NCBI RefSeq assembly: GCF_014646255.1
Contig: NZ_BMNC01000012.1
Coordinates: 124,001-188,000, forward strand
Origin: Lentzea pudingi
Lineage (GTDB): Bacteria; Actinomycetota; Actinomycetes; Mycobacteriales; Pseudonocardiaceae
Length of the DNA stretch: 64,000 nt
Direction of reading: 5' to 3'
The translations under genes were made by a program, and so were the position numbers. A model generated the notes under the pieces. It saw only the letters and a program-made list of their open reading frames with translations. It searched no databases and was not told the DNA's origin. Positions 37,287 to 43,180 of the stretch are shown here, piece by piece (within the stretch, counting starts at the first letter, position 1; each line of letters opens with the position of its first letter).

Positions 37287-37637
37287 TCACACGTCGGCGA
37301 GCAGCACCGTGGCGTCGAAGCACGTGCGGTCGCCCGTGTGGCAGGCGGCGCCGACCTGGTCGACGGTCAGCAGCAGCGTGTCACCGTCGCAGTCGAGCCT
37401 GACCTCGTGCACGTACTGGGTGTGCCCCGAGGTCTCGCCCTTCACCCACAGCTGCTGGCGGCTGCGCGAGTAGTACGTCGCGCGGCGGGTGGTGAGGGTG
37501 CGGTGCAGCGCCTCGTCGTCCATCCACGCGACCATGAGCACCTCGCCGGTGCCCCGCTGCTGGGCGACGGCGCAGACGAGACCGTCCGGCGTGCGCTTGA
37601 GGCGCTGGGACACAGCGGGATCGAGCGAAGCGCTCAA
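37287..37637 (-). CDS. hisI: Phosphoribosyl-AMP cyclohydrolase
   Basis: Third step of histidine synthesis, opening the purine ring of PR-AMP. The 116-residue stand-alone enzyme has the family motifs [44 protein letters not shown] and the zinc/magnesium residues in [30 protein letters not shown]. The hisE domain is not fused, as usual in actinobacteria. The start ATG overlaps the stop of the upstream small membrane gene by 4 bp (ATGA), so hisF, membrane gene and hisI form a tight unit. Confidence 0.95.
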
Positions 37638-37993
37638 CGGGGACCTCCCAGGTGTTCACGAGCCGGTCCGGTGTTGAGCAGGACCACCCCGTAGATGTGC
37701 ACGGCGGACAGCACTCCGGACGCGACGCGCGCCCACGCCGGCCCGTCGGCCAGCACGATGACCAGGTGCAGCAGCGCGACGAGGACGAACACGACCATCG
37801 CCGGGTAGTGCATGAACCGGAGTCTGATGAGCAGCGCGGCCGCGATCGGCAGTTCGACGATCGCGAGGAACGACGGCAGCTTCAGCACGTCGGGGTCGCC
37901 GGTGGAGCGCCACAGGACCAGGCCGACCACGAAGAACACGAGCGCGCCACCGAACGCGACCGCCGAGGCGACCCGCACCTCGACGGGTTTCAC
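37634..37993 (-). CDS. Small membrane protein between hisF and hisI
   Basis: A 119-residue protein with four hydrophobic segments ([71 protein letters not shown]). The GTG start overlaps the hisF stop (GTGA) and its stop overlaps the hisI start (ATGA). Translation of all three is therefore probably coupled, and its levels should follow histidine synthesis. I recognise no family. A role in histidine-related transport or simple hitch-hiking are both possible. Confidence 0.75.
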
Positions 37994-38748
37994 CGCACCA
38001 CGACGCCCGCCTGGCGCAGGCCGTCCTTGACCTCGCTGATGCGGAGCTGGCCGAAGTGGAAGACGCTCGCGGCGAGCACGGCGTCCGCGCCCGCGGCGAC
38101 GGCCGGCGGGAAGTGGTCGACCGCGCCGGCACCACCGCTCGCGATCAGCGGGACGTCGACCTCGCGGCGCACCAGTTCGAGCAGTTCGATGTCGAAGCCG
38201 GCCTTGGTGCCGTCGGCGTCCATCGAGTTCAGCAGGATCTCGCCGACGCCCAGTTCCTGGCCCTTCGCGGCCCAGGCGATGGCGTCGATGCCGGTGCCGG
38301 TGCGGCCACCGTGCGTGGTGACCTCGAAGCCAGTGCCGCCCGGGACGCGTCGTGCGTCGACCGACAGCACGATGCACTGCGCGCCGTACCGCTCGGAGCA
38401 CTCCTTGAGCAGCTCGGGACGCGCGATGGCGGCGGTGTTGAGGCTGACCTTGTCCGCGCCCGCGCGCAGCAGCTTGTTGACGTCCTCGGGGCTGCGCACG
38501 CCGCCGCCGACCGTGAGGGGGATGAACACCTGCTCGGCCGTGCGCCGCACGACGTCGAACGTCGTCTCCCTGTCACCGCTGCTGGCGGTCACGTCGAGGA
38601 AGGTCAGCTCGTCCGCGCCCTCGGCGTCGTAGGCCCTCGCGAGCTCGACGGGATCACCCGCGTCGACGAGGTTGGTGAAGTTGACGCCTTTCACCACCCG
38701 GCCGCGGTCGACGTCGAGACAGGGAATGACACGGACCGCGACTGACAT
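37990..38748 (-). CDS. hisF: Imidazole glycerol phosphate synthase, cyclase subunit
   Basis: Forms ImGP and AICAR from PRFAR using ammonia delivered by HisH. The 252-residue TIM barrel has catalytic Asp residues in [15 protein letters not shown] (Asp about 12) and [19 protein letters not shown]. The phosphate sites [10 protein letters not shown] and [12 protein letters not shown] are present. The HisH partner is encoded at 42545-43180, separated here by unrelated genes. It is the first gene of a hisF-membrane-hisI unit. Confidence 0.96.
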
Positions 38749-38793
38749 GCGGGAAAGCCTACAAGGCAGGCCCGAGGACTACGCTGCGGCGCC

Positions 38794-39174
38794 ATGATCA
38801 CCGAACTGGGCCGCGGCCAGTACCTGCTGCTGACGACGTTCCGCAAGGACGGCACCCCGGTGCCCACCCCGGTCTGGGTCGCACCCGGCCCCTCCGACGA
38901 CGTGATCTACGCCTGGAGCGCCAAGGAGACCGGCAAGGTCAAGCGGATCCGGCGCAGCGGGGACGTGGAGATCGGGCCGTGCGACCTCCGCGGCAACCCC
39001 CAGGGCCCGTCGGTCAAGGCACGGGCACGGCTGCTGGACGACTTCGCCAGCGACGACGTCCGTTCGCGCATCGTCAAGAAGTACGGGTTCATGGGCTGGC
39101 TGACGATGACCGGCAGCAGGCTGCGGCGGGGACGGACCGGGACGGTCGGCATCGAGATCACGCCGGCGAACTGA
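38794..39174 (+). CDS. PPOX class F420-dependent enzyme
   Basis: A 126-residue split-barrel protein of the pyridoxamine-oxidase-like, F420-binding class. It starts ELGRGQYLLLTTFRKDGTPVPTPVWVAP, followed by YAWSAKETGKVKRIRRSGDVEIGPCDLRGNP and a C-terminal RRGRTGTVGIEITPA. Such proteins are common in actinobacteria that make coenzyme F420; the substrate is unknown. The gene is divergent from hisF, and the repeat array begins just beyond its stop codon. Confidence 0.82.
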   Translation: MITELGRGQYLLLTTFRKDGTPVPTPVWVAPGPSDDVIYAWSAKETGKVKRIRRSGDVEIGPCDLRGNPQGPSVKARARLLDDFASDDVRSRIVKKYGFMGWLTMTGSRLRRGRTGTVGIEITPAN

Positions 39175-39183
39175 CTCGCCGAC

Positions 39184-39567
39184 GTCGGGACCCGTCGCTG
39201 TCGAGACCCGTCGACATGGAGTCGACGTTGATGCTGCCGGTCCACATCGATGCCGCCGCGTCCACGTCGAGGTCGCCTGTCCACGTCGAGATCCCCGGTC
39301 CATATCGACGACATCAGTCCACGTTGATCCCACATTGACTCGACATTGATTGCCACCCGGATCAACATCGACGCACGCCAAATCAATGCAAGGTCGACCC
39401 CACCCCTGGCGATGACAACGTTGTCACATGGGCACATCAATGGCCCGCGTCCATGTTGACCACGGGCATCAATGTCGAGTCCACGTGGACCGGATGCGTC
39501 AACGTTGAATCCACACCGATCGTCAACCCGAGGTTGACCCGCACCTCAGCGTCAACCTAAAGTTGAC
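39184..39567. repeat. Array of about 20 degenerate palindromic 12-mers, about 19-bp phased, upstream of the HTH-Clp_N gene
   Basis: The whole non-coding gap between the PPOX gene and the HTH-Clp_N gene is filled with variants of GTCCACRTYGAY. Clear copies start at 39221, 39240, 39260, 39279, 39298 and 39317 (steps of 19, 20, 19, 19 and 19). Others lie at 39339, 39361, 39449, 39468, 39479, 39498 and 39509. Several are palindromes: TGACAACGTTGTCA (39413-39426), GTCCACGTGGAC (39479-39490), GTCAACC-3-GGTTGAC (39522-39538), and GTCAAC-5-GTTGAC (39551-39567), which ends 2 bp before the next start codon. The layout suggests a cooperative operator array. Confidence 0.75.
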
Positions 39568-39569
39568 GG

Positions 39570-40271
39570 ATGATCCAGTTGGCCGACCTCATCGTCACGG
39601 TCGCTCAAGAAGCCGACGACGCCCTCATACGCCTGACGAAAGCCGTCGAACTGAGCGGTCAGCTCAGCGAACTGGGCGACCACCTGATCGGTCACTTCGT
39701 GGATGAGGCGCGGCGGGGCGGGGCGAGCTGGGCCGAGATCGGCGAGAGCCTCGGCGTCACGAAGCAGGCCGCGCAGAAGCGGTTCGTGCCCAAGGAGTCG
39801 CCGGAACTGGGCAAGCCGAGCATGGAGCGCTACACCCAGCGGTCGAGGCGGGTCATCGCGCTGGCCAGGCACCACGCGCGGTTCAGCGAGCGGATCGGCA
39901 CCGAGCACCTGCTGCTCGGGTTGCTCGACGAGTCCGCGGGGCTCGCGGCCAAGACCATCGCGAAGCTCGAGTCGGGCGACGGCAGCACGCGCATCGCGAC
40001 CCTCAACAGGCTCGACTCAGAGGCCCAGCAACGGCCGGAGAAGCAGCCGTACACGACGCACTGCAAGAAGGCCCTCGAACTGGCCGTGCGCGAGGCGCTT
40101 CGGATGGGTCACATGTTCATCGGCACCGAGCACATCCTGCTCGGCGTGCTGCTGGAAGCCGAAGGGACCGCGGCCGACGTGCTGCACAACACGGGTGTGA
40201 CGCACGCGGCCGCGGCCACTCACATCGAGGCCGTGGTCAACGGACCGCAGCGAGTGCTTCCGGGAGCGTGA
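39570..40271 (+). CDS. Helix-turn-helix protein with two Clp_N (ClpA/C N-terminal) repeats
   Basis: A 233-residue protein. Residues about 1-70 contain a helix-turn-helix-like stretch, [23 protein letters not shown]. Two Clp_N repeats follow (about 85-140: [29 protein letters not shown]; about 160-215: [34 protein letters not shown]). There is no AAA+ domain, so it is not a Clp ATPase. A DNA-binding head with Clp_N repeats suggests a regulator that might present itself, or sense substrates, to the ClpC system (inference). The ATG is 2 bp after a perfect GTCAAC-5-GTTGAC repeat, so autoregulation is likely. Its 3' end overlaps convergent priA by 35 bp. Confidence 0.82.
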
Positions 40272-40968
40272 AGGCGCCGGCGTACAGGGCCTTGCCGATG
40301 ATCGAGCCCTCGACGCCGTCGCGCGACAGCTTCGAGAGCGCCACCAGGTCGTCCACAGTGGACACGCCTCCGGACGCGATCACCGGGGCGTCGGTGCGGG
40401 CGCAGACCTCGCTCAGCAGGTCCAGGTTCGGGCCCGTCAGCGTGCCGTCCTTCGACACGTCGGTGACCACGTAACGGGTGCAGCCGTCGCGGTCGAGCCG
40501 GTCGAGGACCTCCCAGAGGTCGCCGCCGTCGGACGTCCAGCCGCGGCCCTTGACCCGGTGGCCCTGCTCGGTGATGCGGACGTCGAGGCCCACCGCGATC
40601 TTCTCGCCGTACGCGGCGAGCGCCTTCGCGCACCACTCCGGGTCTTCCAGCGCGGCCGTGCCGAGGTTCACGCGGGCGCAGCCGGTGGCCAGGGCTGCCT
40701 CCAGCGACGCGTCGTCGCGGATGCCACCGGACAGCTCCACCTTCACGTCGAGCTCGCCGACGACACGGGCGATCAGCTCGCGGTTGGAGCCGCGGCCGAA
40801 CGCGGCGTCGAGGTCGACGAGATGGATCCACTCCGCCCCGTCGCGCTGCCACTGCAGGGCCGCGTCGAGCGGCTCGCCGTAGTTCGTCTCGGTACCGGCT
40901 TCGCCCTGCACGAGCCGGACGGCACGACCGTCGGCCACGTCAACAGCGGGGAGGAGTGTGAACGTCAC
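40237..40968 (-). CDS. priA: Phosphoribosyl isomerase A (HisA/PriA, probably also TrpF activity)
   Basis: Isomerises ProFAR in histidine synthesis and, in actinobacterial PriA, phosphoribosylanthranilate in tryptophan synthesis. The 243-residue TIM barrel has [21 protein letters not shown] (catalytic Asp about 9), [44 protein letters not shown] (second catalytic Asp) and [14 protein letters not shown]. No trpF gene occurs with the trp genes here, which supports the dual role. The start ATG overlaps the stop of the frameshifted secreted gene upstream (ATGA). Confidence 0.93.
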
Positions 40969-42507
40969 CCGAGCAGCCTAGCGTCCCCCAGCACGAGGGC
41001 GGCCACGCGCTCCTGGGCCTCGGTGGTGCGCGGGAACTTCGACGGGACCGGCGTGCCGGGGCCCGTCGCGGCAGGTCCGACGCCCGTCCACGGCCCGAAG
41101 ACCATGATGCCGACGAACGCGGGGTGCTCCTGCGCCAACGCCAAGTGCAGGTACTGGGTACCCGCGAGGTCCGCGTCGGTCCTGTCCGCGCACCACGACT
41201 GCGGCGCGGCCTCGGACAGCAGGAACAGTTCCTTGCCCGGCGCACGCTCCTCCAGCTTCGTCATGCGCGCGTCCAGTGCCTCGTAGCCCACGCAGTACTC
41301 GTCGAAGCCGACCCAGTCGACGGCGGCGGGCACGCGGAAGGAGTCGTCGACCCGGATGCCCGCCTCGATCAGCATGACCTTCTTGTCCGGGAACGTGTTC
41401 TCGATCTGCTGGGCGGAGAACTCGACGTCCGCGAAGCGCGCCGTGGTGGAACGGTTCGTCCTGCAACGCGAACCCGGCCACCCGGTCGAGGTACGGCCGC
41501 ACCTTCTCCGCGAGCACCTGCCAGCGGGCAGCGGCGTTCGGGTACAGGGGGCAGCCGGCCGCGTCGCAGTCGAAGAACTCGTTGCCCGTGTGGACGACGC
41601 AGCCCGCAGGAGCGCAGTCGCGCAGCACCTCGGGACGGTAGGCGTCGACGTCGCTGATCTGCACCCAGTTGAGGTTGCTGCGGCCGCGCACCTCGGGCAG
41701 GTGGTTGCCGCCGGCGGCGTTCAGCCGCGCGCCGAAGTAGCCGTAGTGGCGCAGCTGCGACCCGGGACGTTTGCGCAGGTCGTCGGAGTTCATCCGCTCG
41801 ACGCGCAAGTCGTCGACGAGGCTCACGGTCCTGTCGTCGTCCGAGTAACGCCCGAGGTAGATCCACAACCGCTCGGTCGGGACCGCGGTGCCCAGCGTGA
41901 TCGTCCTGCGCGTGCCGTTGACCGACAGGTCGAGCTGCGATCCAGCGAGCGTCAAGGTCACGTCGAACGAGCCGTCGTCGTGGGCCACGGCGAACGACGG
42001 CAGGTTCACCACGGGCTTGCCCGGCTGGAACAGCTGCACGCCTCCGTTGGCGCGCAACAGGAAGCCGAGGTCGATGTCCTGGTTGGACACATAACCCCAG
42101 CTGTTCGCCGAACGTCCCAGAGCGATCGACGACCAGTCACCGGACGTGCGACTGCCCGCCACCGGTGTCAGCTTCGCCGAGATCGACGACCCCGTGGACG
42201 GCGCGTCGAGCCGCACGGCCGTCGTGCCGAGGTGCATCGACAGCGCGCCTCGGTGGTTCGGGTGACCGACCTGCGCGAACCACGGGCGCGGCACGTCACC
42301 GGTGTTCCACCTGCCCGACACCCGGCTGTACGTGACGGCGCCGGTCCCCTGGCGCTGCTTGAGGTTGTCGTTGAGGCCGTAGGCCGGGTCGGCGTCCACG
42401 GCGTTGTCGAAGGTGTCGTGGAACGGTGCCGATGCGGCGTGCGCGCCCCCAGGCACGGCAACGGCGGCAGCCACCAGGGCGGCTACCGCCAGCAGTCGTG
42501 TGATCAC
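40965..42507 (-). pseudogene. Secreted TIM-barrel/glycosidase-like protein, frameshifted
   Basis: From the ATG at 42507 the frame starts with a signal peptide (MITRLLAVAALVAAAVAVPG...AHA). A probable beta-sandwich/laminin-like region follows (residues about 30-230, SFDVTLTLAGSQLDLSVNGTRRTITLG). A barrel-like part then begins (YFGARLNAAGGNHLPEV, VHTGNEFFDCDAAGC, FALQDEPFHHGA). Near 41436-41443 the coding sense moves to another frame (RFADVEFSAQQIENTFPDKK, then MLIEAGIRVDDSF to the stop at 40965), so a single indel separates the two parts. It could be a real pseudogene, a programmed shift or a sequence error. The precise glycosidase family is not recognisable. Confidence 0.65.
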
Positions 42508-42544
42508 GAATAGGTAGTCAACCAGAACGGGAGGCGCACTCCGC

Positions 42545-43180
42545 TCACGACAAGGTGTTCAACCAGTTCCGCAGGAGGTGCGCACCGGCGTCACCGGACT
42601 TCTCCGGGTGGAACTGCGTCGCCCACAACGGCCCGTTCTCGACGGCCGCCACGAACTCGTCGCCCGCGTGGTCCGCCCACGTCACCAGCGGCGGCCTGAG
42701 GTGCTCGGCCCGCTCCAGCTCCCAGCGGCGCACGCCGTAGGAGTGCACGAAGTAGAACCGCGTGTCCTTGTCGAGGCCCGCGAAGAGCTTCGAACCCTCG
42801 GGCGTGCGCACGGTGTTCCAGCCCATGTGCGGCACGATCGGCGCTTCGAGCCGCTCGACGGTGCCGGGCCACTCGCCGCAGCCCTCCGTCAGCACGCCGT
42901 GCTCGATGCCGCGGTCGAAGAGGATCTGCATGCCCACGCAGATGCCGAGCACCGGACGGCCGCCGGCGAGGCGCTCGCCGATGATCCGGGCGCCGCGCAC
43001 CGAGTTGAGGCCTTCCATGCACGCCGCGTACGCACCGACGCCGGGCACGACCAGACCGTCCGCGTCCCGGGCGGCCCGATGGTCCGACGTCACCTCGACA
43101 TCGGCGCCGACCCGCTGGAGTGCGCGTTCGGCCGAGCGGAGGTTGCCGGATCCATAGTCAAGTACGACGACACGTGCCAC
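42545..43180 (-). CDS. hisH: Imidazole glycerol phosphate synthase, glutaminase subunit
   Basis: Class I glutaminase that supplies ammonia to HisF. The 211-residue protein has [17 protein letters not shown] at the N-terminus. The nucleophile elbow is [20 protein letters not shown] (Cys about 82). The His-Glu pair is in [22 protein letters not shown] near the C-terminus. It is separated from priA by the frameshifted secreted gene and from hisB by several unrelated genes, whereas hisB-hisH-hisA-hisF are contiguous in many actinobacteria. Confidence 0.95.

Follow-up and report, generated by a model that had tools for sequence, protein, structure and literature searches.

A probable ClpC2 autorepressor gene in Lentzea, a candidate DNA-reading helix in its product and a palindrome array upstream

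The closest described relative of the protein considered here is ClpC2 (Mtb Rv2667), which is reported to act both as an autorepressor and as a cyclomarin sponge (PMC10030653). As described by Taylor et al. in 2023, ClpC2 dimerises via its N-domain, binds cyclomarin through its C-domain, and represses its own promoter via the operator CGTCAAC-N5-GTTGACG, which is located 1-2 nt before the ORF and is often repeated upstream; cyclomarin frees the protein from DNA (PMC10030653). According to the same paper, mycobacterial work has established autorepression, DNA binding, release by cyclomarin, the sponge effect and the protection of ClpC1 (PMC10030653). Another relative is the antitoxin RelI (Rv2664), whose HTH is related to head residues 38-76 of the Lentzea protein. 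RelI has 85 aa and is encoded together with the toxin RelS (PMC13284704), whereas the Lentzea protein has 233 aa and carries Clp_N.

The window, that is, the whole stretch of 64,000 nucleotides from Lentzea pudingi that was analysed, contains at 39570-40271 an ORF for which a sequence-only reading had proposed an HTH-like head joined to Clp_N repeats without an ATPase. The features of this locus are listed below.

38794-39174, plus strand: PNPOx-like gene upstream of the array (PNPOx_N 27.2 bits against a Pfam cut-off of 28.1)
39210-39520, no strand: array of gapless, degenerate 12-bp palindromes (about RTCMAYRTYGAY), 15-16 in number with the central site counted
39413-39426, no strand: central perfect palindrome TGACAACGTTGTCA
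39521-39539, no strand: ClpC2 operator 1, CGTCAAC-N5-GTTGACC, differing from the published consensus at one position and lying 30 nt before the ATG
39534-39563, plus strand: predicted promoter TTGACC-18-TAAAGT, with the -35 hexamer inside operator 1 and the -10 hexamer inside operator 2
39550-39568, no strand: ClpC2 operator 2, CGTCAAC-N5-GTTGACG, a perfect copy lying 1 nt before the ATG at 39570
39570-40271, plus strand: clpC2 orthologue with ATG start, 233 aa, HTH head and double Clp_N domain without ATPase
39570-39791, plus strand: N-terminal dimerisation/HTH domain, codons 1-74 (8ada match, AF2, Foldseek, VIA)
39759-39785, plus strand: HTH recognition helix, codons 64-72 (TKQAAQKRF; AF2), with residues 65 and 70 covarying with operator bases
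39822-40244, plus strand: double Clp_N domain, codons 85-225, homologous to the ClpC1 N-domain and the ClpC2 C-domain

The proposed domain make-up was borne out by Pfam, phmmer and AF2. Clp_N was detected in two stretches of the ORF (Pfam, E 5.3e-18), HTH-type Pfam models near residues 48-72 appeared only below threshold, and no AAA+ module follows Clp_N, the ORF ending at 233 aa. In phmmer searches against the PDB, residues 85-211 matched the ClpC1 N-domain 3wde (1.7e-28); unlike ClpC1, the protein lacks the ATPase and has this homologous part fused to an HTH. Residues 2-63 matched the Mtb ClpC2 N-domain 8ada, with 2.4e-13 for the whole protein and 2.4e-14 for the head alone, and the head also aligned over residues 38-76 with the HTH protein RelI (9sdc, 5.8e-5). 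Structure prediction of the head, which had been set as a check, gave a five-helix, HTH-bearing fold (helices 4-14, 18-29, 33/34-49, 54-61 and 65-72), with an AF2 pLDDT of 90.5 for the N-domain alone and 83.9 for the whole protein, in which residues 75-83 form a low-confidence linker leading to the double Clp_N domain. When the head was searched alone with Foldseek, 8ada (two chains) was the sole match below 1e-3 (4.4e-4; TM 0.85-0.94 by target length), and VIA placed model residues 1-63 on 8ada residues 10-72 (Z 11.6, rmsd 1.3, 63 aligned). All other fold matches of the head had Z below 5 in VIA, so the head is assigned to no other HTH family; the HTH itself is backed by the RelI alignment and by the covariation between recognition helix and operator described below. 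Fold matches of the whole model were ClpC N-domains, with the ClpC2 C-domains 8b9o and 8ad9 ranking below the ClpC1 N-domains.

The protein was filed as ClpC2 on the basis of the 8ada match, the operators, the promoter layout and the kept dimer salt bridge. This bridge, D46-R57 in Mtb, corresponds to D37-R48 here, and the two residues are kept in 24/24 Lentzea rows and in 156/158 and 155/158 of the other rows, respectively. In comparison with Rv2667 and M. smegmatis ClpC2, the domain order, the N-domain fold, the salt bridge and the lack of AAA+ are the same, as are the operator sequence, its distance from the start codon and the promoter layout. The differences are two pocket substitutions (F96 to M85 and F172 to Y161), the gapless palindrome array that some Lentzea carry upstream, and the position of the Lentzea gene between two histidine genes and beside a PNPOx-like gene. 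Taken together, the probability is roughly 0.9 that the ORF is Lentzea ClpC2, a leaderless and negatively autoregulated gene encoding a dimeric repressor. The finding is thereby settled as a known regulator, an ordinary orthologue. The supposed newness of an HTH-Clp_N protein did not survive, and a novel stand-alone regulatory system was rejected, since the orthologue has already been published (PMC10030653). The suggestion that the state of a Clp-type binding domain is coupled to transcription fits that orthologue well, given its description as an autorepressor freed by cyclomarin (PMC10030653).

Both operators, each with at most one mismatch, were found in all 39 named loci that have an N-terminus, at -20/-21 and -48 to -50; the named set comprised 41 loci, from which L155 (Clp_N part only) and L146 (C-terminal fragment) were left out. 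Likewise, 25/25 family loci (L060-L084) have two sites, neither with more than one mismatch. The TTGACC-18-TAAAGT site is the sole promoter-like site in 39170-39640 (shuffles mean 0.1), and its arrangement, with one hexamer in each operator, agrees with the layout published for ClpC2 (PMC10030653); transcription from this predicted promoter would yield a leaderless clpC2 transcript. Across the 24 Lentzea-group genomes, GTCAAC-N5-GTTGAC is present 2-6 times per genome (exactly twice in 16), and the clpC2 operator pair is present in every one. The extra gapped sites are at about the level of the reversed control (0-2 per genome), so that the regulon defined by the strict motif is essentially clpC2 itself. 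The idea that the strict gapped operator serves a wide regulon was rejected for the same reason, two of the 2-6 sites lying at clpC2 and the rest being close to control.

By analogy, Lentzea ClpC2 probably behaves as its mycobacterial counterpart does, and it is likewise by analogy that a ligand is assigned to it. The N-terminal HTH domain would dimerise, and helix 64-72 would read both CGTCAAC-N5-GTTGACG operators, which hold the -35 and -10 hexamers. Binding of a ligand to the Clp_N domain (cyclomarin in mycobacteria) would cause ClpC2 to leave the DNA, its own transcription would rise, and the surplus protein would soak up the ligand and shield ClpC1.

Which part of ClpC2 reads the operator was addressed by covariation. 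The published crystal of the Mtb N-domain (8ada) stops at Mtb residue 72, equivalent to window residue 63, directly before the recognition helix 64-72. The sample consisted of 205 loci (24 from the Lentzea group, 25 family, 18 named and 138 phylum/class), a subset of the family, class and phylum matches in which class loci were taken from among the matches listed; four loci with an identical upstream tail were removed, leaving 201, among which copies of one genome may remain. For each locus, up to 420 nt before the head (320 nt for some stretches) were searched with the core GTCAA-N7-TTGAC, in which the outermost and innermost operator bases are unconstrained. This core yielded 345 sites in 80,248 nt, compared with 0 in the reversed control, and 182 of the 201 loci have a perfect core site. 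The 19 without one were left out of the counts; 10 of them hold a one-mismatch site and 9 none (head scores 38-80 bits). The 10 include all six strong R65 heads of family f5, whose sites have T at the left outer base throughout.

Among the counted loci, the left outer base is C at 295/306 sites of K65 proteins and T at 32/39 sites of R65 proteins. A protein was counted as T/A-type when T on the left or A on the right made up half or more of its outer bases; this type accounts for 0/157 K65 proteins versus 22/25 R65 proteins, the exceptions being L204, L247 and L272. The switch is also seen within one genus (g53, family f5), where 3/3 K65 proteins go with outer C..G and each of the 20 R65 proteins that have a core site belongs to the T/A type. 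At the inner position, C..G is found at 294/303 sites of K70 proteins versus 11/41 of Q70 proteins, and a relaxed inner base is found in 9/157 K70 proteins versus 22/25 Q/E70 proteins (3/25 not). Among 226 alignment columns in the 182 proteins, the best predictor of the outer base is residue 65, with 86% of the entropy (next E196, 64%), and that of the inner base, if narrowly, is residue 70, with 48% (next D45, 44%). Sampling is clustered: at residue 65 the FastTree tree requires a minimum of 10 changes, but well-supported branches give only two independent pairs for residue 65 and one for residue 70, too few for significance. Within these bounds, the covariation supports the HTH helix as the likely operator specificity element, more strongly through residue 65 than through residue 70.

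Two other accounts of the head have to be weighed against these data. Taylor et al. sought the DNA site in the C-domain and suggested recognition by a Clp_N-domain helix, which would leave the N-terminal domain to dimerisation only and would explain why R185A/R189A weakens binding in EMSA and why clpC2 mRNA goes up 2.0-fold in the equivalent M. smegmatis mutant (PMC10030653). The two arginines are also present here as R174 and R178, both kept in 23/24 Lentzea rows (one truncated) and in 142/158 and 137/158 of the others. However, the recognition helix of the HTH head falls just outside the crystallised fragment, the operator base changes follow residues 65 and 70 and not the arginines (ranks 196 and 152 of 226 columns for the outer base, 49 and 22 for the inner), and the dimer mutant R57A is reported to derepress 4.6-fold, above the arginine mutant (PMC10030653). 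Recognition by the C-terminal domain is therefore considered unlikely; as both arginines are conserved here, the Clp_N domain may be in contact with DNA as well and may add affinity. Alternatively, the protein might be an antitoxin resembling RelI, or simply an HTH regulator of some other gene, with the Clp_N domain incidental, as the 9sdc match to residues 38-76 (5.8e-5) and the reported HTH similarity of RelI and ClpC2 (PMC13284704) would allow. The N-domain nevertheless fits ClpC2 far better (2.4e-14), the operator sits at clpC2 itself and essentially nowhere else, and the flanks are the PNPOx-like gene and a histidine gene, with no toxin gene seen among the flanking genes searched, a search that excluded very short ORFs. 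This makes an antitoxin or a regulator of another gene highly improbable. Reading of the operator by the N-terminal helix of ClpC2 was not found as an assignment in the literature searched, which calls the region shared by RelI and ClpC2 an HTH (PMC13284704). It is accordingly put forward as a testable revision of how ClpC2 reads DNA, with a recognition helix absent from the crystal and two residues tied to two bases, and it matters because ClpC2 is a known buffer against cyclomarin.

The array directly upstream is a different kind of element. The sequence-only reading had combined it with the ORF into a self-contained system; the array is real, and its last two elements (39521-39539 and 39550-39568) proved to be the published ClpC2 operator, whereas 39210-39520 is a different, gapless array found in some Lentzea only and at most a candidate link to ClpC2. 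In the 345 nt before the operators of the window, 15 units score at least 9/12 (central site included), whereas 200 dinucleotide shuffles of the region gave 1.8 on average and never more than 5. Each of the other 13 Lentzea arrays likewise holds more units than any of its own 200 shuffles (14/14 in all). The cluster is the strongest in the 64 kb, with 16 units against 4 in the largest other 350-bp cluster. Steps between units are most often 19 (63 of 164), 11 (34) and 20 (21), and the 12-bp core GACAACGTTGTC of the central palindrome is found in 12/14 arrays. Scored by an intergenic gap of more than 100 nt, arrays are present in 14/24 Lentzea genomes and absent from 10, L129 having a short remnant; two Saccharothrix outgroups lack the array, and one Umezawaea, in which the flanking gene was not found, was left out of the comparison. 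Array presence requires 4 changes across the tree, and 10/11 rows of one Lentzea clade carry it.

The array might constitute a second layer of clpC2 control, offering weak extra sites that titrate ClpC2 or stabilise it on the promoter. Such a role is suggested by the half-site letters GTCAAC/GTTGAC common to array and operators, by the position of the array next to the promoter, by its excess over shuffles in 14/14 cases and its presence in 10/11 rows of one clade, and by operator-like sites, mismatches allowed, in 6/14 arrays (L117 and L118 with one mismatch; the window, at -361, L115, L121 and L134 with two), which leave weak ClpC2 binding there possible. Against it, in 14/14 array loci operators 1 and 2 are the only exact inward GTCAAC/GTTGAC pairs spaced by 5 bp, a full 7-bp half-site is present in only 32/166 units, and the 10/24 Lentzea without an array keep both operators. 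Because its units lack the N5 gap, the array is not simply more ClpC2 operators, and a run of exact operators was rejected for wrong spacing. Moreover, the gapless motif RTCAAYRTTGAY is found 6-23 times per genome in the 24 Lentzea-group genomes, any sites at clpC2 included (control 0-2), and all 8 in the window's genome lie away from clpC2. On balance, a second control layer is possible yet doubtful.

Elsewhere in the genomes, ATGACAACGTTGTC is present in 24/24 Lentzea-group genomes, with or without the array (control 0). In 15 stretches of the window's genome (G000) and of G011, reading of the translated ORFs placed gapless sites beside a LacI-type regulator and its accompanying sugar-transport gene, next to citrate-synthase-like genes, close to choline/betaine genes and within polyketide-synthase-like coding sequence. 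Given these varied contexts, the gapless motif as one regulon looks mixed, and another protein may bind it; a literature search on the motif strings returned nothing relevant (one unrelated paper). Six Lentzea-group genomes carry ATGACAACGTTGTC in inverted pairs with a spacing of about 2.85 kb (G000:C2:461289 and 464144; also G001:C51, G003:C1, G014:C187, G015:C5 and G020:C31). Small clusters of gapless palindromes with steps of about 15 and 19 bp were observed at G000:C6:606001-606046 (L103) and G011:C1:162181-162296 (L106), near genes that read as betaine/choline catabolism-like and an IclR-type regulator.

The ligand pocket also differs from that of mycobacteria. In ClpC1, F2, F80 and E89 are described as critical for cyclomarin and conserved in ClpC2 (PMC10030653); they correspond to F96, F172 and E181 in Mtb ClpC2 and to M85, Y161 and E170 in the Lentzea protein, so that the cyclomarin-contact Phe pair is not kept and only the glutamate is. 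In contrast, the organism's own ClpC1 keeps all three. Position 85 is M or T in 23/24 Lentzea rows and F in 133/158 others, and position 161 is Y in 21/24 Lentzea rows and F in 110/158 others; both Phe occur together in only 97/158 non-Lentzea rows, and the pair is therefore not treated as defining ClpC2. With these substitutions, the ligand response may differ from that in mycobacteria. Ilamycin and ecumicin are reported to bind Mtb ClpC2 without inducing it (PMC12913811), which indicates that the ClpC2 switch is selective.

According to PMC12339860, Lentzea kentuckyensis is the source of lassomycin, a lasso peptide directed at ClpC1, and the lassomycin-ClpC1 complex 8ibo is among the fold matches of the whole model. 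A genus with a lassomycin producer has a ClpC2 whose drug pocket is altered and, before the clpC2 promoter, a lineage-specific array. As a hypothesis only, Lentzea ClpC2 might take part in self-protection. In a fuller form, it would have been retuned from a general sponge for ClpC1 drugs into a protein that senses the genus's own peptides directed at ClpC1, with a changed pocket (F to M/T and F to Y), an array setting the strength and timing of a self-protection gene, and an HTH helix, not Clp_N, using a two-position DNA code; this combined proposal is speculative and quite improbable as a whole.

With regard to distribution, clpC2 is present in 24/24 Lentzea-group genomes (split over two contigs in G012), and 80/120 sampled genomes of the family match at 1e-30. 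The head alone, at 1e-8, is found in at least 131/394 class, 35/296 phylum and 10/24 distant-class genomes, the class, phylum, distant-class and family samples overlapping. In one distant relative of the HTH head (L307, G649), four one-mismatch operator-like sites 26 bp apart lie about 137-215 nt upstream. Two further short Clp_N-like frames were found in the window's genome, L003 (G000:C1:374914-375315) and L004 (G000:C14:135845-136024), of 239 and 229 aa.

In the region 37287-43180 of the window, clpC2 and the PNPOx-like gene, both on the plus strand, lie within a minus-strand histidine gene cluster comprising PRA-CH, two His_biosynth genes and a GATase, and clpC2 overlaps the downstream histidine gene tail to tail by 35 bp. 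Further along, a minus-strand ORF at 40978-42507, together with 40965-41375 (minus), reads as secreted and hydrolase-like without a Pfam match; its tail seems to run on in another frame, making a frameshift or an assembly error possible.
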